Translations under genes and position numbers: made by a program
Shown here: positions 17,639 through 62,910 of the stretch, in pieces
How the letters are laid out: each line of letters starts with the position of its first letter
Position numbering within the stretch: the first letter of the stretch is position 1
DNA from: Prorocentrum cordatum
Taxonomy: Eukaryota; Sar; Dinophyceae; Prorocentrales; Prorocentraceae
Reading direction: 5' to 3'
Assembly: GCA_963575745.1 (NCBI GenBank)
Contig: CAUYUJ010001736.1
Span: 350,628 to 414,627 of the forward strand
Length of the DNA: 64,000 bases
The notes under the pieces: model-generated
What the model was told of the DNA's origin: nothing
Databases searched by the model: none
What the model saw: only the letters and a program-made list of their open reading frames with translations

Positions 17639-18334
17639 TTGCAAGCACTCCGCAAGCAGGCGGGGGCAGCCGTCCGCATGTACCTCCGAGCACGTGACTC
17701 GCCGAAATGTTCCGTGCCGTGGTGTCGCCTCAAGTCCACCCGCGTAGCACTTCCGAACTCGTCCAGCTGTCCGCCCGCCTGCGCAGCGCATCGGAACTGG
17801 TTCGCAGAACCCGTGCCTGGGACTCTCTTGGCGTACGCACCGGCCACCGCGCCGGCTGGTGGTCGACAGACGAATGATGCAGCGACCGCGTTCCGAAAGC
17901 GTCGCTCTCTCCGACCGGCCGGCCACTTTCAAGGAGCCTGCGCAACGTGCGGGGCTCTGCACTTCTTCGCCGAACGCGCGCGTTGCCCGGCAGCACGCAG
18001 AAAGGACTTCGGCGCGTGCTGCAGGTACGGAGCCCTGGCTGGCATCCCCCTACTGCCTCCCGCTCCGGCCGAAATGGCTCAGCTCCTTCGTCCGGGTCTT
18101 TCCCACGACCACTTCATGCAGCACACTCGGTCGTACAACTGCGCCCTTGGATTCGCATCCTTCAACAGCGAGAGCACTGTCGCCGCACGGAAGACCCGCC
18201 TGTCGGGCACCCGGGCACCGGGGCACCCGGGCACCCAGGCTTTGCAGGCACCCCGGCACCGGGGCATCCGGGCATCCCCCGGGCACCCGGAAAGGAGGAG
18301 GGAGGATGAGGAGGAGGAGAAGGAGGAGGAGTGA
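17639..18334 (+). CDS. Cys-rich repeat protein, C-terminal part, copy 2
   Basis: A second frame continues the Cys pattern of the preceding coding region (KCSVPWC ... CPPAC, then CATC ... CCRY) before passing into Pro/Gly/His-rich and Glu-rich repeat-coded sequence. The link to 17631 needs a one-base shift or a short intron. The same segment is found at 1-663, so the C-terminal part of this gene is duplicated in the window. The true stop is uncertain because of the GGA tract. Confidence 0.4.
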   Translation: MQALRKQAGAAVRMYLRARDSPKCSVPWCRLKSTRVALPNSSSCPPACAAHRNWFAEPVPGTLLAYAPATAPAGGRQTNDAATAFRKRRSLRPAGHFQGACATCGALHFFAERARCPAARRKDFGACCRYGALAGIPLLPPAPAEMAQLLRPGLSHDHFMQHTRSYNCALGFASFNSESTVAARKTRLSGTRAPGHPGTQALQAPRHRGIRASPGHPERRREDEEEEKEEE

Positions 18335-19054
18335 ACGTCGGGCAGGCGTCCAGCGCAATCCGAGGCGAGGGTAGAGCCAGAAGGAGTAGGAGGTGGAGGG
18401 GACCGGGAGGACCGTTTCGGCCGTTCGAAAAAGCACCTCATCCATGTCCTCCTCCTCCTCCTCCTGCTCGTTCTCTTCCCCCTCCCTTCCATAATCAGAC
18501 TATTCCTCCGCCGGCTCGGCTCGGCCCGGCCCGGCCCGGCTCGGCCAGCGGAGGAGGAGGAGGGAGGAGGAGTGGGAGGATGAAGACAGGACAGGGGGGG
18601 AGTAGGACGACGAGGAGGAGGAGGAGGAGGAGGAGGAGGAGGAGGAGGAGGAGGAGGAGGGGGAGAAAGAGCGAGGAGGCGGGGAGGGACATGAGCAAGG
18701 GGAGGCGGATGAGGACTAATTTCGTGGAGGAGCAGGCGTTCGCAACCGGCGCAGCATCCAGGCAGAAGAGGAGGAGGAGGAGGAGCAGGAGGAGGAAGAG
18801 CAGGAGGAGGAGGAGGAGGAGGAGGAGGAGGATGAAGAGGAGGACGCGCAGGAGGAGGCCCGGTTCGCCTGAAACATCCTCAAAGCTCTGGGTTCCGAGA
18901 CGTCCTGACCTGAGTTGGTCAGACCACTTTCGCCTGAGACATCCTCGAAACTCTGACCTCGGAGGTGCCTTGCCCCACGGTGGTCCGGGCACTTTCGCTT
19001 GAGACACGCTCGCATGTCTGGGTTCCGAGACGCCCTGAGGTGAGGTGTTCACTC
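17684..19054. repeat. Direct repeat copy 2 (matches 1-1400)
   Basis: Second copy of the block at the window start. Here the sequence continues uninterrupted past the point where copy 1 meets the gap, showing what probably lies within or beyond the gap. Confidence 0.9.
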
Positions 19055-21138: not shown

Positions 21139-21393
21139 TGTGTGTTGTCCCAGACAATGAAGTTTTCGGGCCCTTGTCTCCTCACCCTTCCCCCCTCCCC
21201 GCCTTCAACAGTTGGCGGGTTGGGAGGGGCGGGGGCGCCGGGGCTTTTTTCACTGCAAGGTGGGGCCGTCTCAAAGATAACATGATTTTCTGGCGCGTTC
21301 GTGTGATTTTAGGCCGCCAGAAAAAACTACCCTTTTCAGTCGAAAAGGGTCGTTTTCCGACTTGTTATATTTTGCGTTCTCCGCTCAAGTTCT
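21139..21393. repeat. Split direct repeat A1 (5' terminus)
   Basis: Matches A2 (28561-28819) over about 255 bases with few differences, mainly six versus ten A at 21321. It contains a potential ORF1 start ATG (21282) and the hairpin at 21330-21349. By analogy with related elements it should hold the promoter. No TATA box is obvious. Confidence 0.9.
21330..21349 (+). promoter_or_regulatory. Hairpin CCCTTTTC-AGTC-GAAAAGGG, upstream of ORF1
   Basis: A perfect 8-bp stem with a 4-base loop, preceded by GGCCGCCAG and an A-tract. The same module occurs in A2 (28751-28780) and between the methyltransferase and recombinase ORFs (26981-27010). The role is unknown; an RNA structure acting in translation, processing or packaging is possible. 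Confidence 0.6.
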
Positions 21394-23476
21394 TTGGCTC
21401 GAGCGGCCCGCCGAAGCTTCGGCGGCCGCGCCCGAGGTCTTCTACATCGGCTCCCCGCGCGGCAGCGGCGCGGGCCATTCCGCCAGCTCGAGCGGTTCCT
21501 CGTGGGAGCTGATCGAGCGCGACGCCTTCGACGAGTGGCAGGCGCTGGACCTGCCGGAGGTCGAGCCGGAGAGCGTCTGCGAGACGGCGCGTCTCGGCTG
21601 TGGCTCGCTCGGGCTGCTGCTGTGGTCGCTCTTCGCTCTTGTGAGCGACCCGATCGTGGAGCAGGACGATTTCGAGAGTGACGTGGACGCCGTCGAGGCT
21701 CAGATGCCTGTGGAGCCATGGTCCCGGAGGTTCTACCGCCAGACAGCGACCGACGGGGTGGAGGTGCAGTTGGTGAGGCGGAAAAGTGGCAACGTTTGGG
21801 CCGTCATCACCCCAGACTTGAGTTTGGGCCTGGTGTGCATCACGGCGCGGACGACGCTGTTCACGGACCCGATCGCCGGGATTCGCTGGCGGCCGATGCC
21901 GCCGTTGAGTGCGGCCCAACGGGATGCCTACCTCAACCAGGCGGCGGAGGGGCTGCGCGCGTCGACGGTGCCCACGCTGCCCCTCTACCGTCCGGGGCGT
22001 GCCGGGCAACAGGCGATGGCCGTGAACGTGATCTATGCGTTGTTCAGCTCGGGGGCCTCATCTCTAAAGACTTCGAGGTGGTCGCTTCGGAGTCCGAAGC
22101 GGTTCCTGGGTGTGTTGGCCGCGTTGTTCGTGCTGTACGAGGCCCTCGTGATGCTGGGGGTGATCGAGTACATGAAGGAGGTGTGGGTGGCTTTCATCAG
22201 CTACATTTCCGCGGCCAAGGAGACGTTCGTGGAGAGCTCGGAGGCGGTGCAGGACTGGATGACCTACTTCGGGGAGTGGCGGGACTGGGCTCAGAAGCTC
22301 ATGCCGCTCCAGCGCTGGTTAGCGATGCTGGTGGCTCTCGTCCTCTTGACTGTGTGGGCAGCGCACGAATGGTCGGATACTGCGGAGCCAGGCGAGTCTT
22401 CGATTGGTTCCTCCTCGGCGTCGAGCGTGTATGTCGCGGCGCACTCTGGTGCTGTTGCTCAGCCGCCGTTGCCGCCGCCAGCTCAGCCTCCTGTTGTGGA
22501 CGCTTCGGCTTTGGCGGCCCAGCTGAGCGACCTCGCCGAGTCTCAGAAGGCCATGATGGAAGAGATCAGCGAGATCAGGACGGCGGAGCGGACTCGGGAG
22601 CTGCGTCGAGGCGTGCTCGAGGGTTCGGTGGAGTCACGAGGCCGATCCGAGTCCGAGGCCAACAAGCAGGTGATCGAGGGCATGATCGCGCGCTTGGACA
22701 AGTTCGAGGCGCGCCTGCAGGGGGAGGTGCCAGCCGACGCGAGCGTCGGGGAGAGGGTGGCCGCGACCGAGGGGGCCGCTGCTTCCTCTTCGGCTGGGGC
22801 GACGGCGGCCTCGCCTACCAAGGCGTCCGCGCCGAGCCTGATGGAGACCCCGGAGAAGCGTGCTGCTACGACCCCGCCGGAGGCTGTGGAGCTGGCCATC
22901 AAGCGGATGCGGTTCAAGGCCCAGTTGCCGCAGCAGGTGTTCTTGGAGCAGTTGGACGAGTACGAGGAGATCCCATCGGAAGAGTGGAACAGCCGCATGC
23001 CAGAGGGGCATCGGCAGAGGATTTCGGCGGAGGTGTTGTCGAAGATCTACTCGTCGGGGAAGACGGCAGAGGCGTGGTCGCGCGATTTCATTCGCGACCG
23101 CGGGCTGAGCGACTGCAACACGGCTCGGGAGATGATCGCGGACTTCGCGGCTGTGGACACGATGCTGATGACGGACCGCCAGAAGGGGTTCCTCAACCTG
23201 GTGAGCTTCGAGCGCCTGGTGCGCAAGGGCTATGCCATCGTGCGGGCCTACCGCAACGTGAACTGCCGCGACGACTGGAGTCGCCCCAAGGACGCGAAGA
23301 ACTGGAAGTCGAAGGTGGACTGGGAGGCGGCTCGACGTCTGGATCCTCGGCTCGCCGACGAGAGCGCGATCCGGGTGATGAGCGCCGAGGAGGAGGTGAA
23401 GAAGGCCATGGGTCGGGACGCGCAGCTGATGAAGGCGCGCAGCGACCTGGACGGGGGAGCGGTTGCCGCTCCGTGA
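21362..23476 (+). CDS. Retrotransposon ORF1 (Gag-position protein with membrane segments)
   Basis: The frame is open from 21281 to TGA at 23474-23476, about 700 residues with no in-frame ATG until codon 113 or so. In the A2 repeat the homologous frame starts at an ATG (28704), so the original start was probably ATG 21282, now out of frame. It shows hydrophobic segments near residues 78-91 (LGLLLWSLFALV), 247-265 (FLGVLAALFVLYEALVML) and 320-338 (WLAMLVALVLLTVWAA). A Pro/Ala linker, a Glu/Arg coiled-coil-like region (about 385-450) and a conserved-looking C-terminal part (SGKTAEAWSRDFIRDRGL, DTMLMTDRQKG) follow. There is no CCHC knuckle. By position it is the Gag equivalent, but membrane segments are unusual for Gag. 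Confidence 0.7.
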   Translation: MLYFAFSAQVLWLERPAEASAAAPEVFYIGSPRGSGAGHSASSSGSSWELIERDAFDEWQALDLPEVEPESVCETARLGCGSLGLLLWSLFALVSDPIVEQDDFESDVDAVEAQMPVEPWSRRFYRQTATDGVEVQLVRRKSGNVWAVITPDLSLGLVCITARTTLFTDPIAGIRWRPMPPLSAAQRDAYLNQAAEGLRASTVPTLPLYRPGRAGQQAMAVNVIYALFSSGASSLKTSRWSLRSPKRFLGVLAALFVLYEALVMLGVIEYMKEVWVAFISYISAAKETFVESSEAVQDWMTYFGEWRDWAQKLMPLQRWLAMLVALVLLTVWAAHEWSDTAEPGESSIGSSSASSVYVAAHSGAVAQPPLPPPAQPPVVDASALAAQLSDLAESQKAMMEEISEIRTAERTRELRRGVLEGSVESRGRSESEANKQVIEGMIARLDKFEARLQGEVPADASVGERVAATEGAAASSSAGATAASPTKASAPSLMETPEKRAATTPPEAVELAIKRMRFKAQLPQQVFLEQLDEYEEIPSEEWNSRMPEGHRQRISAEVLSKIYSSGKTAEAWSRDFIRDRGLSDCNTAREMIADFAAVDTMLMTDRQKGFLNLVSFERLVRKGYAIVRAYRNVNCRDDWSRPKDAKNWKSKVDWEAARRLDPRLADESAIRVMSAEEEVKKAMGRDAQLMKARSDLDGGAVAAP

Positions 23477-23653
23477 CTGCTAAGGAACTTCAATTGGGGT
23501 CTCTCGGTTTCGTGTCGGTCGGCCCTTGCAGCTGGCGCTCGAGCCGTTCTTGGCGTCGGCATCTTTTGGCAACTTTATCTTTTCCGCTGCGGCTGACGCT
23601 CATCATCATCGTCGGCTGCCACGCGAGCTATTGCACGCCGAATTGGGGCTTTC

Positions 23654-25217
23654 ATGTCTCGGCGGCGCGACATCCTGTCCGAGGTGGTGCTCTTCGCGCG
23701 CCCGGAGCGCCCGAGCTCGACGTCTCGTCGAGTGCTTGCGCGCTGGAAGGAGGAGGTGGAGACGCTCGGGAGGGCAAACCGCACGCTCTTGGCGCTGCGA
23801 CAACTCTACCGTGGGAGTCTGGACGACAGCCTGCTGGAACTGGCCGACTGCTGGGGCCAGGGGGTGATGCCCGACAACCTGGACGGGGACTTTTCTCGGC
23901 GAGTGCTCGGGGAGGTTCGTCGCCAGCAACCGCCGCCGACGACGCCCTGTCAAGGAGCCGCGATCCTGCGGCTGCGCCCTGCCGCCTCAGCGGCGGGCAA
24001 CCAGTCCCGGTCGACCTTCAAGCAAAGGTTGGCCGGACTTCGGAGGAGGAGTGCTGGCGGAAGTGTGCGGCTGCCGGACAGGGGCGATACGTTTCCCGCC
24101 CAGTGGGATCGAGTTGCTCTACCTCCCCCGGGGACCAGACCTGTGAATGCGAAGTCTGTGTCGCCTCGTGTGGCACAGAAGTTGGAGAGGTTCAAGGAGG
24201 AGATGTTGAAAGAGGATGGCGATGCCTGTGTGCAGGCCTGCGAGGTGCGCAACTACGTGGACCCGCACTTCCGAAAGAAGAAGGAGATGCTCCAGCTGGC
24301 GAGGAGGATGGCTCTGGCTGTGATGCTCTGCCGGACTGCCGAGAAGGTGGACGAGGTCGGGCTCTTCTGCGCGGTGAAGAAGGCCGAGCTGGCGAAGGAG
24401 GAGCCCGAGGTGACCCTGCGGCTGGTGTTCGACCAGAGGCGCTCCAACTCGCGGTGGCGAGCTCCGCCGTGGCGTGCCATGGGCGGTGTGAGCGCGATGT
24501 CTTTCCTGGACGGGTCGGAGGAGATGAAGGAGGACGGGGTGACCATGCGCTTCGGCACGGGCGACCTGCCCGACTTCTACTACACGCTGGAGCTGGGGGA
24601 GGATCTCGCGCCCTACTTCGTGCTGCCTGGCGTCTCTGGGGACGAGCTGGACGCGGTCTTGCCCGAGGCCTCTTTGCTGCCTGGGACTGGGTCCTACGTG
24701 GGGGTTAAGGTGGCCCTCATGGGCTTCTCGTGGGCGTGCTGGATAGCGCAGACCACCATGGAGGACATCTTCAACTCCGGGCCGCAGGCGGGATTACCAT
24801 CGCTGTCGGAGGGGCAGCGGCTCGCCGAAGGAGGTCCATTGCCCCATCTCAGCCGAGACCTGCCCGCGGCGCACTACGAGTACATCGACGACGTCGGGAT
24901 CATCGGGCTAGACTACCCCGCGGTCCCTGGCCAGGAGGAGGTCATGAAGGTGGAGGATATCTGGCTGGGCGCCAAGGAGCTGGCGATGGCGGCAGGCTTC
25001 CAGGTGCACAAGGACGCGTGCTCGACGAATGCTCGCATGATTGGTGGCGATTTCCAGGGCACTCGGCTGGCGCCGAACCAGGACAAGATGTGGCTCGCGG
25101 TCTTCGGCATCCAAGAGATCCTAGCCCGCAAGTGGGAGCTGCCCGACGCGATCGCGCGGATCGTGGGTATCTTGTCGTGGGGCTTTTTGATATGCAGGGG
25201 CGCCCTGAGTATTTTTT
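23654..25217 (+). CDS. Retrotransposon ORF2, reverse transcriptase part
   Basis: Starts at ATG 23654 after a 177-base spacer. A basic N-terminal region precedes the RT core: LRLVFDQRRSN (motif around 24418) carries the first catalytic Asp, and YEYIDDVGIIGLD (about 24880-24918) is the YxDD box with both Asp residues. It copies the element RNA into DNA, presumably in the nucleus or a particle. The frame ends functionally at a T7 run (25212-25218). Removing one T leads straight into the RNase H frame (SEVHAWCMEFRGG), so the polyprotein was originally continuous. Confidence 0.85.
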
Positions 25218-26060
25218 TCGGAGGTGCATGCGTGGTGCATGGAGTTTCGGGGAGGAGCTCGACGCGAGGTGCCGCTGGAGGTGCTGAGGGAGCTGGCGGC
25301 GGCAGCGGCGATCGCGCCCCTGATCTCGGTCGACCTGGCCACGCCCTGGGACCCCACCGTGATGATGTTCGACGCCAGCCTGTGCGGCGGGGCCATCATC
25401 TCCACCTCGGGCACGGTGGAGGAGCAGCGTCGCGAGGCTCGCTACGCTGTTCGAGGCGGCTGGACCGCGTGAGATGGTATATGCTCGTCCTGGGCTGCGG
25501 ACTCCTGGTGCGAGGGCGAGGCCTTCAGGCGCGTGGGAGACGACGTGGAGTTGGGGACGCGGGTGCGCGTGCCACCGGTGCACGCCTGCTGGGACGACAT
25601 CACCAGGTGGAAGGAGGTGGTGCGCTGGCGGTGGGAGGAGAAGGAGCACATCAACCTGCTGGAGATGCGCACAGGAGTCGCTGCGGCGAGGCATTCGGCG
25701 CGAAGTCGGGCGAGCTGGGGAAGACGGCACCTGCGGATCACGGACTCGATGGTGTGCCTCGGCGGCTTCAGCAAGGGCAGGTCCGCCAGTCGGCCGATCC
25801 TGATCTTGTGCAGAAGGATGGCCGCTCTCGACCTCGGGTGCGGGATGCGCGAGTACTGGCGCTGGGTGCCCTCCGACCGCAACCGCAGCGACGGCCCGAG
25901 CAGGGGTTTCCCCATCGGCCAGGCCCCGAAGGAGCGGAGGACGGACGAGCAGGTGCTGCCGGAGAAGGTGGCGCGGGAGATCGAGGCGCTGGCGGACGTG
26001 GCAGAGATGGACCCTTTCCAACCGCTCAGGATGGGGGTCTCGGTCCCGGTGAAGGTGCTG
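25218..26060 (+). CDS. Retrotransposon RNase H domain (frame-shifted, one stop)
   Basis: In the frame after the T7 run all four acidic RNase H positions are visible: MMFDASLCGGA (about 25366), HINLLEM (about 25648), RITDSM (about 25738) and SDGPSRG (about 25888). An in-frame TGA at 25470-25472 splits it after GGWTA, and reading continues in the same frame (SSWAADSWCEGEAF). The domain removes RNA from the RNA/DNA hybrid. It is continuous with the RT upstream and the methyltransferase-like domain downstream as one ORF2 polyprotein. Confidence 0.8.
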
Positions 26061-26914
26061 CGCTTCATGCACTTGTGCAGTGGGCACACTCGCGAGGGGG
26101 ACTTAGAGCACTGGCTTTTCCGGATCGCCGCCTCGAGGGGGCACCTGCTGATCTGCGCCAACGTGGACATCGGCTTCGGGGCACAGTTCGACCTGACGGA
26201 CGAGGTCAACGTCAGGAAGCTGGAGTTGCTGGCCGAGGCGGAGACCGACGGCGGACACTCGGGGCCCTCGTGTGCGACTTGGTCCAGGGTGCGCTTCCAG
26301 CCCGGAGGGCCGCCTCCGCTCCGTCTTCGACATCAGCTGTGGGGCCGGCCAGGCCTTCGAGGAAACGACCTGAAGAAAGTTCGACTCGGGAGCACCCAGC
26401 TGCTGAGCAGTCTGAAGGTCTTGAGACCAATTGGGCGCAAGGGGGGCTCGGTGTCGCTCGAGCACCCAGCCGACCCGGGCTGCGCCCCGTTCCCGTCCAT
26501 CTTCATCACGGAGGAGGTGCTGCAGTGGGAGGCCGAGCTGGACGCATACAGGGTGACCTTTCATCAGTGCATGTGGGGCTGTGCCGCACTCAAGCTGACC
26601 ACGCTAACTGGTACGGCGGCGGGCATGGAGCGATTCATCAGGACTTGCACCCACGAGAAGCACGTGGCGAGCCTTGTGGAAAGGACGCGACCGGTCGTTT
26701 CCGCACGAGGGTGGCCCAGGCGTACTCGTCGGAGTTCTGCCGGATGCTGGCGGAGTGCCACGTGGACGCCATGCTGAATATGCAGGAGCGCAGGGAGGCC
26801 GAGCTGACCGAGAGGGCCGTGGAGCAGCTGATAGCAGAGACTCTGGAGCGCAGGCGCCGGGACCATTCATCAGTGGATATCTTGCCGACGGCCTTCCTCG
26901 AAGCGTCAGGATAA
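26061..26914 (+). CDS. Retrotransposon methyltransferase-like domain and ORF2 C terminus
   Basis: After RNase H comes RFMHLCSGHTREGDLEHWL, which fits the glycine-containing SAM-binding motif of Rossmann-type DNA methyltransferases. GPSCATWSRVR (about 26262) resembles the Pro-Cys active-site motif IV of cytosine-5 enzymes, with Ser in the place of Pro just before the Cys, and SLEHPADP (about 26455) sits where motif VI is expected (EHP rather than ENV). No Dam-type DPPY motif is seen. The frame is lost near 26677-26681 (one base missing) and resumes with GKDATGRFRTRVAQ to TAA at 26912-26914. Other DIRS elements carry Dam-like adenine methylases, so a cytosine-type domain is notable. Enzyme activity is inferred only. 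Confidence 0.65.
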
Positions 26915-26956
26915 GTGAAGCGCCCGAATGGCCAGAGGTGATCGTCGCACCTGCTG

Positions 26957-28351
26957 TTGCTCGGATGGCCGCCAGAAAATAACGACCCCTTTCAGTCGAA
27001 AAGGGTCGTTTTCAGGGCTCGCACTTCGGGCTCGGGAACTTCGAGCGCGCGTGCCTCTATGACCTTGGCTTCCACCCGGTCTTCGCTGAGGCAATCCTCT
27101 TCTGGTCGGTGTTCGTGTTGGGTGGGCCTGGTGATCTGGGCTGTGACGCCGACCCGGGCGAGGGCGGCACCCGAGGAGAGGCTGCGCCATCACGCTCAGC
27201 ACCGCAAGATGGGCAGCACCCACCGCGGGAACGAGGCGGAGCGTTCGTCATCATGGGGGGCTACGCCGAGAAGCAGGACTACGGCTGGATTGGCGTTGCT
27301 CCCGTTCTCGGTCTCCATCGAGACCGCGCTGGGCTGCTACGTGCCGAATGTGCGGCGCTTCCTGGAATTCGCCCTGGAGTGGAACCTGCCTATGATGAGC
27401 CGCGAGGAGATCGACGACTCGGTCCTCTGCTACCTGGGCCGGCTCGTGGAAGACGAGGAGGTGGGTCCACACCGAGGCGACTTCGTGGTGCATGGCATGG
27501 CGTACGTGTGGCCAGAGCTGTCTACAGGGCTGCCGAGGTCGAACCGAGCGCTGCGAGCTTGGCATCGATTGCACGTGGCCGGAGAAGGCGGACCTCAGCC
27601 GCTGGAGTTGTGGGCCGTGTTGGACGAGGCTATGAGGTTAGCCGGTAACGTGGAGGCGGCCGACGCGGCGGAGCTCGCGCTGGGCGCCTACCTGAGATCC
27701 GCCGAGCTCTTCGCCTTGCGCGCCTCGGACATCGTCGTCGACACGGACGCGCAGGGCGAGCAGGTGGTGGCGCTGCGGCTCGGAGTCGCCGAGCGGGCCG
27801 AGCGCGCGAAGACGGGCGTGAGGCAGGGCGCGCTGGTCGATCGCAAGCACGTTGCCGAGATGCTCGTCCGGAGGAAGTCGGTCAAGCAGCCTGCTGACCG
27901 AGTGTTCGCCTGCTCGGTTGACGCCTACCGCCGGGCGCTGCGGCGGGCCTGCGAGGACATCGGAGCGCCGACGTTCCCGCCGCACGCGGCCAGGCACTCG
28001 GGCCCCAGTCGCGACGCGGCCGAGGGCTACAGGACGGCGTGGGCCATTTAGCGTCGTGGGCGCTGGGCCTCGGAGAAGAGCGCGCTGAGGTACATGACGA
28101 CGCGCGCGTTGGCCGCCGCGCGAGCAGCCCTACCGCCAGAGCTGCTGCAGCGTGGAGCCGGTCTGTTGCAGAAGAAAGTCGCGCGCCCGGAAAAGGCGCG
28201 AGAACGAGCCCGGACAATGCGCAGACATGTATTTCTATTCAATCGATTATTTTCCAGAGTTGCGGTTGTGAGCTCCAATGGCGGCTTGAACCGTGGCGCC
28301 AGTCGCCCACCCACCCGGACCCGGGCGCCTACGACAAGCCAGGCGCTCTAG
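26957..28351 (+). CDS. Tyrosine recombinase (retrotransposon ORF3), with a premature TAG
   Basis: The frame is open from 26957 (first ATG at 27058) to TAG at 28049-28051, and again in the same frame to 28351. An N-terminal SAM-like DNA-binding part (SIETALGCYVPNVRRFLEFALEW) is followed by the catalytic domain: YLRSAELFALRASDI with the first Arg (about 27692), a Lys region (AKTGVRQGALVDRKHV), HAARHSGPSRD with the His/Arg box (about 27982), and after the TAG GRWASEKSALRYM with the Tyr nucleophile (about 28091). The TAG sits between box II and the Tyr, so the product as read would be inactive unless read through. It would integrate the circular DNA copy by strand exchange. Confidence 0.85.
26981..27010 (+). 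promoter_or_regulatory. Internal copy of the A-repeat hairpin, upstream of the recombinase ORF
   Basis: AACGACCCCTTTC and GAAAAGGGTCGTT form 13-base arms (one mismatch) around an AGTC loop. GGCCGCCAGAAAA precedes it as in A1 and A2. It lies between the end of ORF2 (26914) and the recombinase ORF. Confidence 0.65.
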
Positions 28352-28369
28352 CAGTTGCAGCGGTGAAGT

Positions 28370-28560
28370 GGGACATTCGTTGTTGCAGGCTGCCTCTGAC
28401 TTGTGAGATATCGAGTTTGAGCCTGCCCTGACCAGTGCCAGCCGCCGCGTCGGCGGCTTCATGTTCACGTGTGAGGTGGAAATGAAATTTGCCCAGTGGC
28501 TGGCCCCACCTTGCCCGCCGCCCCCCGCTCGGGTGAGAGTTAAGACTTGGAACCTCTAAA
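28370..28560. repeat. Split direct repeat B1
   Basis: 191 bases matching B2 (28889-29079) with a handful of substitutions. It starts GGGACATT and ends CCTCTAAA, directly abutting A2. Confidence 0.92.
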
Positions 28561-28819
28561 TGTGTGTTGTCCCAGACAGTGAAGTTTTCGGGCCTTTGTC
28601 TCCTCACCCTTCCCCCCTCCCCGCCTTCAACAGTTGGCGGGTTGGGAGGAGCGGGGGCGCCGGGGCTTTTTTCACTGCAAGGTGGGGCCGTCCCAAAGAT
28701 AACATGATTTTCTGGCGCGCTCGTGTGATTTTAGGCCGCCAGAAAAAAAAAACGGCCCTTTTCAGTCGAAAAGGGTCGTTTTCCGACTTGTTATATTTTG
28801 CGTTCTCCGCTCAAGTTCT
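28561..28819. repeat. Split direct repeat A2
   Basis: 259 bases matching A1. Here the ATG at 28704 is in frame with the ORF1-type reading LLYFAFSAQ, unlike A1. Ten A precede the hairpin at 28751-28780. A 69-base pyrimidine-rich spacer (28820-28888) separates it from B2. Confidence 0.92.
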
Positions 28820-28888
28820 CCCTCCCGCCCTTCCCCTTTCGCTCTCTTCCGCTCTCCCCGCTCACTTTAACCTCAACCCTGGTCTGTG

Positions 28889-29079
28889 GGGACATTGGTT
28901 GTTGCAGGCTGCCTCTGACTTGTGAGATATCGAGTTTGAGCCTGCCCTGATCAGTGCCAGCCACCGCGTCGGCGGCTTCATGTTCACGTGTGAGGTGGAA
29001 GTGAAATTTGCCCAGTGGCTGGCGCCACCTTGCCCGCCGCCCCCCGCTCGGGTGAGAGTTAAGACTTGGAGCCTCTAAA
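28889..29079. repeat. Split direct repeat B2 (3' terminus)
   Basis: Second copy of B. It ends CCTCTAAA next to ACGTAGATGTA of the flanking microsatellite. Confidence 0.92.
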
Positions 29080-37849: not shown

Positions 37850-38410
37850 ACCAACAGTCACACACTTCGTGCTCTTCGACTTCCCAGAACTCCATTCCCA
37901 GGCTCATTCTGAATAACCGGATGCAACAGTCACACACTTCGTGCTCTTCGAGATCCCAGAACGCCATTCCCGGGCCACATTTGGAGGGCCGGATGCAACA
38001 GTCACACACTTCGTGCTCTTCGAGTTCCCAGAACTCCATTCCCGGGCCACATTTTGGATGCCCGGAGCCAACTGTAGGCCACTTCGTGCTCTTCGACTTC
38101 CCAGAACTCCATTCCCGGGCCACATTTTGGATGCCCGGAGCCAACTGTAGGCCACTTCGTGCTCTTCGAGCTCCCAGAACTCCATTCCCGGGCCACATTT
38201 TGAATGCCCGGAGCCAACTGTAGGCCACTTCGTGCTCTTCGAGTTCCCAGAACTCCATTCCCGGGCCACATTTTGAATGCCCGGAGCCAACTGTAGGCCA
38301 CTTCGTGCTCTTCGAGTTCCCAGAACTCCATTCCCGGGCCACATTTTGAATGCCCGTAGCCAACTGTAGGCAACTTCGTGCTCTTCGACTTCCCAGAACT
38401 CCCATTCCTG
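37850..38410. repeat. 72-73-bp tandem satellite
   Basis: About eight units contain CTTCGTGCTCTTCGA, CCCAGAACTCCATTCC and GGGCCACATTTTG. Unit starts are 72 or 73 bases apart. The first three units differ (GATGCAACAGTCACACA in place of the later GGAGCCAACTGTAGGCC). Confidence 0.93.
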
Positions 38411-38429
38411 GGCCACATTTTCAGCAGGG

Positions 38430-39195
38430 GCAAGAGCACGACGAGGAGGAGGACGAGCAAGACCAGGAGGACGAGGACGAGCAGGAGCAGGACGAGGAGC
38501 AGGAGGAGCAGGAGAAGAAGGACGAGCAGGAGGAGGAGGAGGACGAGCAGGAGGAGGAGGACGACCAGGAGGAGGAGGACGACCAGGAAGAGGAGGAGGA
38601 GGAGGAGGAGGAGGAGGGGAGGGGGAGGAGTACCAGGAGGAGGAGGAGGAGGAGGAGGAGGAGGAGGAGGAGGAGGAGAGGAGGAGGAGGAGGAGGAGGA
38701 CGAGGACGAGGAGGAGGAGGAGGAGGGGGGGGGAGAGTACCAGGAGGAGGAGAACGAGGACCACCAGGAGGAGGAGGAGGAGGAGGAGGAGGAGGAGGAG
38801 GAGGAGGAGGAGGAGGAGGACACCAGGAGGAGGAGGACGAGCAAGACGAGAGGACGAGAACGAGGACGACCAGGAAGAGGAGGAGGAGGAGGAGGAGGAG
38901 GAGGGGAGGGGGAGGACTACCAGGAGGAGGAGGAGGAGGAGGAGGAGGAGGAAGGAGGAGGAGGGAGGAGGAGGAGGAGGAGGAGGAGGACGAGGAGGAG
39001 GAGGGGGGGGGAGAGCACCAGGAGGAGGAGAACGAGGACCACCAGGAGGAGGAGGAGGAGGAGGAGGAGGAGGAGGAGGAGGAGAGCACCAGGAGGAGGA
39101 GGACGAGCAAGACGAGGAGGACGAGAACGAGGACGAGCAGGAGGAGGAGGAGGAGGAGGAGGAGGAGCAGGAGAAAGAGGAGGAGGAGGAGAGGA
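38430..39195. repeat. GAG/GGA/GAC purine-rich triplet array
   Basis: Nearly pure (A/G)-rich plus strand with GAGGAGGACGAGCAG interruptions. A block of about 330 bases is repeated (AGGACGAGCAAGAC and GGGAGAGCACCAGGAGG/GGAGAGTACCAGGAGG recur). Open frames on both strands are repeat artefacts. Confidence 0.9.
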
Positions 39196-40299
39196 GGCAG
39201 GCTGAGGCTGAGGCTGTGACTGCGACTGCCGTTGCCGCTGCGACTGTCATCGCGAATGCGACTACGACTGCGAGAACAGCAGAATTCGACAACTGGATTT
39301 TCATCTGAATCTTAAGGGGAATGCTTTCAGATATGCTTCTACACATCGCTGTTAGGTTGCTTTGCCGGGATAATTTGTTCTTTCTCAGGCTTCATGCTCA
39401 GACGTTTCCGTCCTCATGTCCATGTCCTGTTTGTTTTGCTTGTCCTATTGCTTCCTTGAAGCAGGGTGGTCTTTCCACACGCAACTGCTTCAATAGTATG
39501 CATTCCTCAGGGGGGAACTGGACGAGGCTATGCCAGAGTTGAAACGGAAGTTACCGAACCTGAGCAGTGTGGCCGGGCGACACGCGATCTGACCCCAGGC
39601 GCTGCTCAGGTGCGCAGTGCCAGGTTCAGGTCACACGGCGTGGCGAGCACCATGCACTCTTTGTGCGCAGGCGGGGGGCCTGTGCGGCGGCCCCGATCGG
39701 GGAGAGATCCGTCGACGCGGGTTCCGCCTCTCCACGACATTCGAAATCGCGGGTGGCGTCCCGGAGGTCTGGACCTCACCCCAGGGACAGGCTTCTCGTC
39801 CCGAGGCGCTTCTTGTCGGTCCCAGCGCCTGGCTGGTAAACTTGGACGCCCAGAATGGGTGCGGAGGCAGTGGGCACGATGACTGGCAATAGATGTTATC
39901 GAACACCGACAGCGGCCGCTGTTGGGCATGCGGTCTTCTGTATACGGTCGGACCCAGGCATAATGCCGAGGTCGGTGCGGAGAGGGCACCCCGATGCTCT
40001 TCGCGCTCGGTGGATGTTCTTGTGCGCCCTGGGGCGGGCACCCTTGGATGCTCTGTGTGTCGTGGCCGACGGAGGATCTCGTGTCCTCGAGGGATGCTCT
40101 TCTCAGGAGGAAAAAAAACACACAGACACAATTAATCGTCGATTCCCTAGAAACTACGGGAAAATATGGGAAGTGGGGGGGAAGATAAAAACCCAGAAAA
40201 TATGAAGTATATTGGGAATCTGGTTATTTGTGTCTAACTATTCAATAGCTTTGCTCATTCCATATTCTAGCATCGCTGGCACTTGCTTGCGTGCTTGGG
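39196..40299. other. No gene seen; unique DNA
   Basis: 39990-40085 resembles 36520-36605 (CTTCGCG, GGATGTTCTTG(T/C)GC, TCTGTGTGT...GACGGAGG), a dispersed repeat. 40100-40280 is AT-rich by local standards. No coding signal. Confidence 0.4.
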
Positions 40300-47939: not shown

Positions 47940-48165
47940 CCCCGGCGCCTCGAAGAGGCCTCAAGACGGCCCAGGAGGCCTCCAAGACGGCCCCAGGAGG
48001 CCCCCAAGATCGTCCAAGAGGGCCCCGAGACACAAAGATCGCTCCACGACGCCCAAGATAGTCCAAATGTGGCCCAAGACGCCTCCAAGCCTTTCGGCTT
48101 CCCGACGCTCCAAGACAGCCCAAGAGGCCCCCGAGATCGCCCCAATACCGCCCAAGAGACAGGAG
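47940..48165. repeat. CAAGAGGCCCC phased repeat field
   Basis: Same family, with the cassette end GGCTTCCCGACGCTCCAAGAC at about 48099-48117, very close to the 14.1-14.9 kb copies. Confidence 0.8.
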
Positions 48166-48605
48166 GAGGAGGATGAGGGGGAGGAGGAGAAGACAGCGGA
48201 GGAGGAGGAGGAGGAGGAGGAGGAGGAGGAGAAGGGGGATGGGGAGGAGGAGGAAGAGGAGGAGGAGGAGCAGGAGGAGGAGAGAGGAGGAGGAGGAGGA
48301 GGAGGAGGAGGAGGAGGACGAGGAAGAAAAGGTGGATGGGGAGGAGGCGGAGGGGGAGGAGGAGGGGAGGAGGAGGAGGAGGAGGAGGAGGAGGCGGAGG
48401 CGGAGGCGGAGGCGAAGGAGGAGGGGGAGGAGGAGGTGGAGGAGGAGGACGGGAGAGGTGGATGAGGCGGCGGAGGAGGAGGAGGAGGAGTAGGAGGAGG
48501 CGGATGCGGAGTAGGATGATGAGGAGGAGCAGGCGGAGGAGGAGGAGGAGGAGGAGGAGGAGGAGGAGGAGGAGGGAGGAGGAGGAGGAGGAGGAGGAGG
48601 AGGTG
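48166..48605. repeat. (GGA)n purine tract
   Basis: Almost entirely G and A on the plus strand, with GGC interruptions. Confidence 0.95.
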
Positions 48606-48639
48606 GCAGAATATGATGAGAAAGAGGAGGAGGAGGATG

Positions 48640-49455
48640 AGGAGGGGGATGAGGAGGAGGATAAGGATGGTGTTGATGATACTGATGACGGTAATGATGA
48701 TGTTGATTACGATGCTGATGATGTTGGTGATGTTGATGTTGATGATGTTGATGCTGATGCTGATGCTGATGTTGATGATGATGCTGATGCTGGTGGTGAT
48801 TATGATGATGACGATGCTGTTTCTGCTGATGATGATGCTGATTCAGATAATGCTGCTGCTGATGTTGCTGCTGCTGATGATGCTGCTGATGACGATGATG
48901 GCGACAATGCTGATGTTGATGCTGATGATGATGACGGTGATACTGATGATGGTGATGAGTTTGATGCTGCTGCTGATGATGATGACGACGTCGATGCTGA
49001 TACTGGTGATGCTGATCAGGATGATGATGCTGCTGATGAGGATGATGATGACCATAATGATGATGATGATGCTGATGATGCTGATGATGTTGATGATGGC
49101 TGCTGCTGCTGATGCTGCTGATCAGGATGATGTTGATGATGCTGCTGATGGTGCTGATGATGATGCTGCTGATACTGCTGCTGATGACGCTGCTGATGAT
49201 GCTGCTGATGCTGCTGCTGATGATGCTGATGCTGATGCTGCTGCTACCGATTATGATGCCGATGATGCTGATGCTGGTGTCCCTGATGATGATGATGCTG
49301 GTGATGATGATGATGGTGATGATGATGATGATGATGATGATGCGACTGATGCTGATGCTGCTGCTGATGTTGATGATGATGATGCTGATGATGATGCTGA
49401 TGCTGATGATGATGCTGATGATAATGATGATGCTGCTGCGGATGATGCTGATGAC

Positions 49456-49501
<46 letters not shown>

Positions 49502-49698
49502 CTGGTGCTGATGGTGATGATGCTGATGCTTCTGATGCGGCTGCTGATGATGCTGATGATGCTCAGGCTTCTGATGCTGATTGTGATGATGATGTTGTTG
49601 ATGATGATGCTGATGCTGATGCTGGTGCTGCTGATCAATCTGATTATGATGATAATGCTGATGCTGGTCACGCTGATGATGATGATAATCATCATGAT
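48640..49698. repeat. GAT/GCT trinucleotide array
   Basis: More than 1 kb of GAT, GCT and related triplets, often as GATGATGCT. All frames are open for long stretches (poly-Asp/Ala, poly-Met/Leu, His-rich on the minus strand). The same array resumes at 51532, so it was split by the element at 49708-51522. Confidence 0.95.
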
Positions 49699-49707
49699 GC
49701 AAATGCT

Positions 49708-51522
49708 GAGGGTGCGCCGCTGGATCTTCCCAAGGGGGGTGGGGGGTAGGGCCCCCCCCCCCCCCCCCCCCCTTCCCCGATCCGTCGTCGGGGCCCCCCC
49801 CCTTCCCCCCCTTCCCCGATCCTTCGTCGGAGACCCCCCCCCTCCCCCCCTTTCCCCGATCCGTCGTCGGGGACCTCCCCCCCCCTCCCACCCTTTCAAA
49901 AGGGGGGAGGGGGGGTCCGAACCCCCCCCCCTCCCCCCTTTCGCCGCGCCGCCCCCTGACTCCGGAACCCGACGCCGCCGCCCCTACCCCTAGTCCTCAC
50001 CCTAACCCAAGCCCCTAATCCTAACCCCAACCACTAACCCCAGCCCCAAAGAGCACTCACTACTCATTACTCACTACCCACTACTGACTACTCGCTATTC
50101 GCTACTCACTTCTCACTACCCCCTACTCACTACTCACGACTCACTACTCACTATCCTTTACTCACTACCCACTACTCACTACTCCCTAGTCACTACTCCA
50201 TCCTCCCTACTCACTACTCACTCCCCACTACCCACTACTCAATACTCATTACTCACTACTCACTAACCACTACTCACTACTCCCTATTCACTACTCGCTA
50301 ATCCCTACTCATTACCCATTACCCACCATCCACTACTCACTACTCACTACTAACTACGCATTGCCCACAAATCATTACTCACTACCCGCTACTCGCTACT
50401 CACTACTCCCTGCACAAGGCTGACTACACAGTACCCAGTACTAACTACTCGCTATTCCCATACTCGCTACTCGATACTCACTACTCACTCCCCGCTTCTC
50501 ACTGTTCACTACTCACTACTGACTGTTCCCTTCTAACTAGTCACTACATAGTCTCTAGTCACTAGCCACAACTCACTAGTCACTATGCAGTACTCACTAC
50601 CCACTACCCACGACTCACCAATCGCTACTCACTACCCACTTATTCGCTACCCACTTCTGATTACTCACTGCTCACTACTCCCTACTCACTACTCACTACT
50701 CCCTACTCGTTACTCACGACTCACTACCCACTACTCACTACTGACTACTCACTCCGCCCTACTCGCTCCTCGCTACTCACTACTCGCTACTCCCTACTCG
50801 CTACTCACTACTCACCACCCACTGCCACTACCCACCACTCTCTATTCATCACTACTCAGTACGCACTACGTACTACTCAATACTCACTGCTCACTACTCA
50901 CTACTCACTACTGACTACTCGCTACTCACTACTCACTACTCACCTCTCACTACTCACTACTCACTACGCACTACGCACTATTCAGTACTCACCAATCACT
51001 ACTCGCCACCCACTACTCACTACGCACTAACTCACTACCCACTACTCATCACTCCCTACGCCGTACTCAGTACTCACTACTTGCTCCTCGCTACTCACTA
51101 CTAACTACTCACCACGCGCCACTCACTACTCACTCATCAGTACACACTACACACTGTTCACTACTCACTAACTCCCTACTCCCTACTCCCTACTCGCTCA
51201 CAACTCACTACGCACTAATCCACTATTCACTGCTCACCACTCCCTACTCCCAACTCCGTACTCCCTACACGGAGGGGAGGGTCCGAACCCCCCCCCCTTC
51301 CAACGCCAAGGGGGGGAAAGGAGGGGGGGGGAGTCCGGTTCCCCCCGCCCCTTTTTCAAGGGAGGGGGGGGGGGGGGGGTTCGGGACCCCCCCCCCCCCC
51401 TTAAGGGGGGGAGGGGGGGGGTGTTTTCCGGACCCCCGCCCCCCTTGAAGGGGGGGAGAGGGGTGGGGTTTCTGGACCCCCGCCCCTTTAGTGTATTCGG
51501 AGAGATCCACTGGCGCACTTTC
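49708..51522. mobile_element. Putative non-autonomous DNA transposon with TIRs and a 9-bp TSD
   Basis: GCAAATGCT occurs directly outside both ends (49699-49707 and 51523-51531). Inside, GAGGGTGCGCCGCTGGATCT (49708-49727) faces AGATCCACTGGCGCACTTTC (51503-51522), 16 of 20 paired positions agreeing as inverted repeats. Subterminal G- and C-runs with GTCCGAACCCCC and TTNAAGGGGGG words also occur on both sides. The interior is a CACTACTC array and no transposase is present. A 9-bp duplication is typical of Mutator-like elements, but the TIR is short. It is inserted in a GAT/GCT array. Confidence 0.65.
50045..51250. repeat. CACTACTC octamer-type array
   Basis: About 1.2 kb of CACTACTCA/CTACTCACT words with frequent single substitutions, nearly lacking G on the plus strand. 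It forms the core of the putative transposon. Confidence 0.95.
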
Positions 51523-62074: not shown

Positions 62075-62910
62075 GAGGGGGGGGTGATGAGGAGGAGGAG
62101 GAGGAGGAGGAGGAGGAGGAGGAGGAGGAGGAGGAGGAGAGGCGGAGGCGGAGGGGAGGCGGCGGCGGGGAGAGGAGGAGGAGGGAGGGAGGAGGGGAGG
62201 AAGGAGGAGGGAGGAGGGAGAGGAGGAGGAAGGAGGGGGAGGGAGGAGGGAGGGGAGGAGGGGGAGGGAGGAGGAGGAGGGGATGAGGAGGAGGGAGGAG
62301 GGAGGGGGAGGAGGGAGGAGGGAAGGAGGGAGGACGGGAGGAGGGAGGAGGGGAGGAGAGGGAGGAGGGAGGAGGGAGGGAGGGAGGAGGGGGGAGGGAG
62401 GGGAGGGAGGGGAGGGAGGGAGGAGGGGAGGAGGGAGGAGGGAGGGAGGAGGAGGGAGGAGGGAGGAGGGAGGAGGGAGAGGGGAGGGAGGAGGAGGAGG
62501 AGGAGAGGAGGGAGGAGGGAGGAGGGAAGCAGGGAGGAGGAGGAGGGAGGAGGAGGAGGAGGAGGGAGGAGGGAGGAGGGAGGAGGAGGGGAGGGAGGAG
62601 GGAGGAGGAGGAGGAGGGAGGAGGGAGGAGGAGGAGGAGGAGGAGGAGGAGGGAGGAGGAGAGAGGAGGGAGGAGGAGAAGGGAGGAGGGAGGAGGGAGG
62701 AAGGGAGGAGGGAGGAGGAGGAGGAGGAGGAGGAGGAGGAGGAGGAGGAGGAGGAGGAGGAGGACCAGGAGCAGGAGGAGGAGGAGGAGAGGAGGAGGAG
62801 GAGAGGAGGAGGAGGGAGGAGGAGGAGGGGGGGAAGGGAGGAGGAGGAGGAGGAGGAGGCGGAGGAGAAGGATGAGGAGGAGGAGGAGGAGGAGGAGGGA
62901 GGAGCAGCCA
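62075..62910. repeat. GGA/GGGAGGA purine tract
   Basis: More than 800 bases of almost pure G/A on the plus strand, in mixed GGA, GGGA and AGGAGGGAGG phrasing. Confidence 0.97.

Follow-up and report, generated by a model that had tools for sequence, protein, structure and literature searches.

The locus considered here occupies positions 21139..29079 of the window, by which is meant the whole 64,000-nucleotide stretch of DNA that was analysed, and it raises the question of what kind of mobile element combines split direct repeats with coding regions for a reverse transcriptase (RT), an RNase H, a methyltransferase (MT) and a tyrosine recombinase (YR). We read it, with a probability of roughly 0.87, as a decayed tyrosine-recombinase retrotransposon of a dinoflagellate, built on the PAT plan (DIRS order) and carrying a divergent C5-type MT at the end of Pol. 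The element is a degraded member of the SymbioDIRS-like PAT-plan group, to which it is assigned by repeat plan and domain content and not by an RT/YR tree; passages of PMC4157794 describe both the repeat plan and the presence of an MT as homoplasious among YR elements, so these characters place an element poorly when no tree accompanies them. Taken by itself it is a modest advance, and the surprise lies in relatives, found in the same genome (an assembly of 4.13 Gb in 21,875 contigs), in which the MT is nested.

The element is framed by two families of direct repeats on the forward strand, delimited by direct-repeat comparison. Repeat A1 (21139..21393, 255 bp) forms the 5' end and starts TGTGTGTTGTCC, B1 (28370..28560) abuts A2 (28561..28819, 259 bp) exactly at 28560/28561, and a 69-bp spacer (28820..28888, forward strand, delimited by comparison with copies) leads to B2 (28889..29079), which forms the 3' end and finishes GCCTCTAAA, giving the order A1 ... 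B1|A2 - 69 bp - B2. The A repeat aligns in two parts, 21139-21326 with 28561-28748 and then 21321-21393 with 28747-28819, each at 97% identity, with 6 transitions, 1 transversion and 4 gap columns between A1 and A2 (K2P 0.028); B1 and B2, also 97% identical, differ by 4 transitions and 2 transversions (K2P 0.032). The sequence-only reading had proposed just this arrangement of split repeats, with edges against TATGTA-type simple sequence, and both proposals are borne out, the simple sequence being seen on either side of the element. The DIRS1-like plan, inverted terminal repeats with an internal complementary region, does not apply, the terminal repeats of the window element being direct and split. 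Insertion is not tied to the TATGTA microsatellite, because two further copies (L031 and L032) sit in other, non-microsatellite sequence; insertions may lean toward simple repeats, as there is a GT run next to L034, and L052, from a different family, lies within GAT repeats.

Elsewhere in the window, direct repeats that are 96% identical lie 17.7 kb apart at 1-1400 and 17684-19054; they may be terminal repeats belonging to a second element that the edge of the window truncates, or else a segmental duplication. The window also contains large arrays of mini- and microsatellites at 37863-38421, 38443-39197, 48161-49699, 50055-51268 and 62089-62904, with, in order, a 73-bp unit, GAG, AGG/GAT, ACTCACT and GAG as their units.

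Comparison with further copies in the genome shows that the repeats, the left end and the B|A junction all recur, so the repeat structure is not a product of chance. L031, L032 and L033 are about 96-99% identical to the window over pieces, and L034 is an 80% relative. The left end can be read in four of these five copies (the window, L031, L032 and L034, with N in L033), where it starts with TGTG or TGCG next to differing flanks. Right ends are less regular than left ones: in L031 only 41 nt of B2 are present before the copy ends, L032 finishes exactly at B1 without A2-B2, L034 reaches the B terminus but is missing 22 nt from the start of B2, and L033 is bounded by N on either side, which makes the window the complete case among these copies. 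The A2-B2 spacer is complete in L031 and L033, and L034 matches its first 28 nt. By a strict motif, the exact B|A junction is present at 15 of the 21 loci examined, a set that did not include L036, L040 or L052 and in which L038 and L039 may count one insertion twice.

The copy at L053, whose family is 72% identical to the window element in RT protein, is whole and has an A-coding-B-A-B plan in which a single pol frame encodes the RT and the cytosine MT, the YR having an ORF of its own. Its A1 and A2 (154 bp) are identical, as are its B1 and B2 (227 bp), so the repeat plan is established at insertion, and its reading frames for gag, pol (1095 aa) and the YR are open. L051, whose 5' end is N, likewise encodes the MT together with the RT and places the YR in its own ORF. 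An open 1095-aa frame around the MT is present in at least 21 rows among 150 scored candidates, and the order RT-RNase H-MT was read in two of these frames, L051 and L053; copy numbers of this kind are lower bounds, as first-look candidates numbered 5450 for the YR and 5789 for the MT, with 150 scored in each. No target duplication was seen by eye at the three sites with both ends read (window, L032 and L053), and no empty site for L053 was found. That the RT, MT and YR pieces were merely juxtaposed by chance or by an assembly chimera, as the two changes of frame in the window copy might suggest, has a negligible probability: it is refuted by the recurrence of the same domain order on other contigs, to which the identical repeats of L053 and the long open pol frames of many copies can be added.

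The number of B-A units varies among copies, being 0 in L032 and otherwise 1 or 4. L038 and L039 each carry five B cores with four exact B|A junctions, arranged as four tandem A-B units of 410-411 bp at the 3' end of the element (L038:1831-3474; L039:1598-3240); the two share a right flank and so may represent a single insertion recorded twice. Such variation is accounted for either by the recombinase acting at B|A or by homologous recombination, and we put at about even the odds that the 0, 1 and 4 units come from ordinary homologous recombination or slippage and not from the YR at B|A. B1 and B2 are direct repeats, an exchange between which would yield the A1..B form of L032, and the three 411-bp units of L039 that are 98-99% alike differ by just 1-2%; nothing decisive stands against this explanation, the exact junctions being compatible with both. 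Whichever process made them, the variable units are natural products on which the cut position of the recombinase can be tested.

A 46-nt block with an imperfect palindrome lies inside A1 (21312..21357, forward strand) and occurs again in A2 and before the YR, the last of these copies being placed by repeat comparison between MT and YR (26967..27013, forward strand). The palindrome itself is at 21321-21357 in A1, 26977-27013 before the YR and 28747-28783 in A2, and in the A2 of L033 it has a perfect 15-bp stem. A widely dispersed genomic motif was considered and rejected, since the exact palindromic 24-mer occurs just 9 times in 4.13 Gb, five times in the window element and three sister copies and four times on contigs C7085, C15543 and C21192. 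Sharing of the block between A and the pre-YR site is a feature of the window family, decayed in L034, and comparison found none in L051. A role in recombination, as a site, or in expression is a candidate function for the block.

The coding regions of the window copy all lie on the forward strand. ORF1 (21281..23476, 731 aa stop to stop) is Gag-like by position only, with no Pfam match, and inspection of its translation by eye showed no Gag zinc finger. It is followed by the RT (23597..25231), with motif A at 24572-24589, motif B at 24713-24736 and motif C, YIDD, at 24881-24892; by an RNase H with D-E-D-D residues (25301..25904); by the MT core (26016..26678), recognised from motifs and the predicted fold of a relative, with HLCSG at 26070-26084, GPSC at 26262-26273 and EHP at 26460-26468; and by the YR (27293..28201), recognised from motifs and Pfam, with R at 27689-27706, HxxR at 27983-28012 and W..Y at 28058-28096. 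Pfam and PDB sequence searches gave no match for RT and RNase H, so these two domains are identified by their motifs; RTs of Symbiodinium DIRS elements are likewise described as aligning poorly with Pfam seeds (in part of PMC5890265). For the window proteins, as a single copy, Pfam returned nothing but a weak YR match (PF00589, E 0.063), and Rfam had no match within the window. The assignment to tyrosine-recombinase retrotransposons, which had already been made from the sequence, is supported by the YR motifs in the window and by PF00589 matches in the relatives L051 (E 1.7e-5, below the curated cut-off) and L052 (E 2.1e-8, above it).

The description of the element as near-intact, by contrast, is wrong at the protein level. 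The RT frame, from 23597, ends at about 25230 and another frame is taken up before the RNase H, which TGA 25470-25472 interrupts; a second frame change, near 26676, affects the C-terminus of the MT, and TAG 28049-28051 truncates the recombinase ahead of the catalytic Tyr. Across families, dN/dS is 0.11 for the YR (window-L038), 0.21 for the RT and 0.34 for ORF1 (both window-L053), and for the MT 0.124 (window-L048) and 0.177 (window-L051), within a range of 0.09-0.33 over nine between-family or between-subfamily pairs, synonymous sites being near or at saturation in several of these comparisons. At the level of sequence, these ratios show purifying selection on the MT, YR, RT and ORF1 of the element families.

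The MT had been suggested to be cytosine-type, and this is supported by a C5-methyltransferase fold predicted for a relative. The window's own MT model, from a shallow alignment, is poor (pLDDT 33.9), and the good model is that of a nested-family relative 33% identical to the window MT. The best 50 structural matches of that model are all C5-methyltransferases; Foldseek gives it modest TM-scores (0.36-0.42 by query, best 15), and DNMT3 comes first but is tied with M.HhaI, ZMET2 and DNMT1. Against the solved structures of DNMT3A/B and M.HhaI, the MT, of about 250 aa, differs in having 8-20% identity among the matches listed and no match in a PDB sequence search. As Pfam does not call it, with PF00145 remaining sub-threshold, scans based on that family would miss it. 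A fold search in viral models included phage and algal-virus C5 methylases among its matches, at low identity; a bacterial or viral origin was set aside, there being no relative in the genome_contigs or viral_contigs collections at the sensitivity used.

From the modelled fold, the MT is likely a DNA-methylating enzyme acting at cytosine. It is rather unlikely, though worth weighing, that the fold is instead a relic or a binding module. Known C5 enzymes carry a Pro-Cys pair, from which the GPSC of the window lineage departs (other families have GGPPC), and this, together with the sub-threshold PF00145 result and the Arg that replaces the catalytic Cys in the decayed copy L034, would fit a loss of activity. 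Against it, C85 and E148, the catalytic Cys and the motif VI Glu, are invariant in the rows of alignment A4 that cover them, an alignment that omits incomplete or broken copies, among them L034, L043, L047, L050, L056, L072 and L073, and the low dN/dS over the nine MT pairs argues in the same direction.

A different placement of the MT is found in all four of the relatives inspected from other families, where motifs A and B are followed by the MT and only then by motif C, so that by motif order the MT lies within the RT palm (L052:3908-7345; L074:424-3846; L075:384-3734, minus strand; L076:470-2857, cut at 796 aa). Motifs B and C, which here read MG[GS]SHSVH and Y..[IV]DDG, are 384-416 residues apart in these four, as opposed to 56 in the window, L051 and L053. 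The part of the nested pol after the MT aligns to the window-family RT from motif C on (hhalign E 7.5e-5, probability 62%), as does a segment of 49 residues from the early part of Pol to its window-family counterpart (E 8.9e-4, probability 23%); the part with motifs A and B gave no profile alignment to the window-family RT, so on that side the nesting is read from motifs. In L052, which has the A1-ORFs-B1-A2-B2 plan, the last MT match and motif C are only about 65 residues apart, which leaves no room for a second RT. Open frames without an inside stop, among 150 scored, number at least 26 of 1146 aa, 10 of 1182, 7 of 1134 and 5 of 1117, the domain order having been read in the four copies named above.

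We consider it an evenly balanced proposition that several abundant families carry a C5-type MT inside the RT palm between motifs B and C, that the MT moved between this position and the Pol end under selection, and that one folded unit could both reverse-transcribe and methylate its product. If functional, the nested form would amount to a polymerase whose palm incorporates a DNA-modifying enzyme. The nested placement also offers a way to test how an element might methylate its DNA during copying. No MT nested in an RT was found in the parts of PMC5890265, PMC8547959, PMC4157794, PMC3266345, PMC11453091 and PMC12344493 that bear on these elements, which is no proof of absence.

A life cycle can be proposed for the window element in which RT and RNase H would copy the element RNA, and the internal B1|A2 junction, which has the sequence expected of the joined ends B2+A1, could template closure into a circle, as in the circle-closure model of the DIRS/PAT literature. 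The YR would then integrate that circle at B|A with no duplication of the target, consistent with the three sites read by eye. Cytosine methylation by the MT may mark the newly made cDNA or circle, allowing it to be taken for host DNA or protecting it from attack; methylation of cDNA was proposed for SymbioDIRS by de Mendoza et al. (in part of PMC5890265).

Among known systems, the sequence-only reading had named a PAT/Ngaro-type plan, of which the PAT half stands. Ngaro elements of Cafeteria share the A1-ORFs-B1-A2-B2 repeats, the Gag-like ORF1, RT-RNase H (here recognised by motif) and YR (passages of PMC8547959), and a Ngaro- or VIPER-type identity would account for this plan; it is nonetheless very unlikely, as the window element has an MT under purifying selection, whereas Ngaro and VIPER are described without one in passages of PMC3266345 and PMC4157794 (with none in those of PMC8547959). 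With the PAT group (Pat1-like, Toc, Kangaroo) the element shares split direct repeats, a YR and an MT domain after RNase H, and with Toc the absence of a Gag zinc finger, in ORF1 as checked by eye (passages of PMC4157794); the DIRS-class MT, however, is described as Dam-like N6-adenine (part of PMC5890265), while that of the window group has a predicted cytosine fold. Closest is SymbioDIRS-Dnmt3 of Symbiodinium, for which PMC5890265 reports the same A-coding-B-A-B repeats, a separate YR ORF, a cytosine MT encoded in Pol in the same frame as the RT, two domain orders within one genome and a divergent RT. Its DNMTs were counted by PF00145 and cluster with Dnmt3; the MT described here stays below the PF00145 threshold, and in the window lineage it bears GPSC. 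The passages on SymbioDIRS make no mention of an MT between RT motifs B and C, as in the nested relatives here. The host is probably new for the SymbioDIRS-like group, and the range of retrotransposons with a cytosine methyltransferase thereby widens from Symbiodinium to a further, larger genome of dinoflagellate type.
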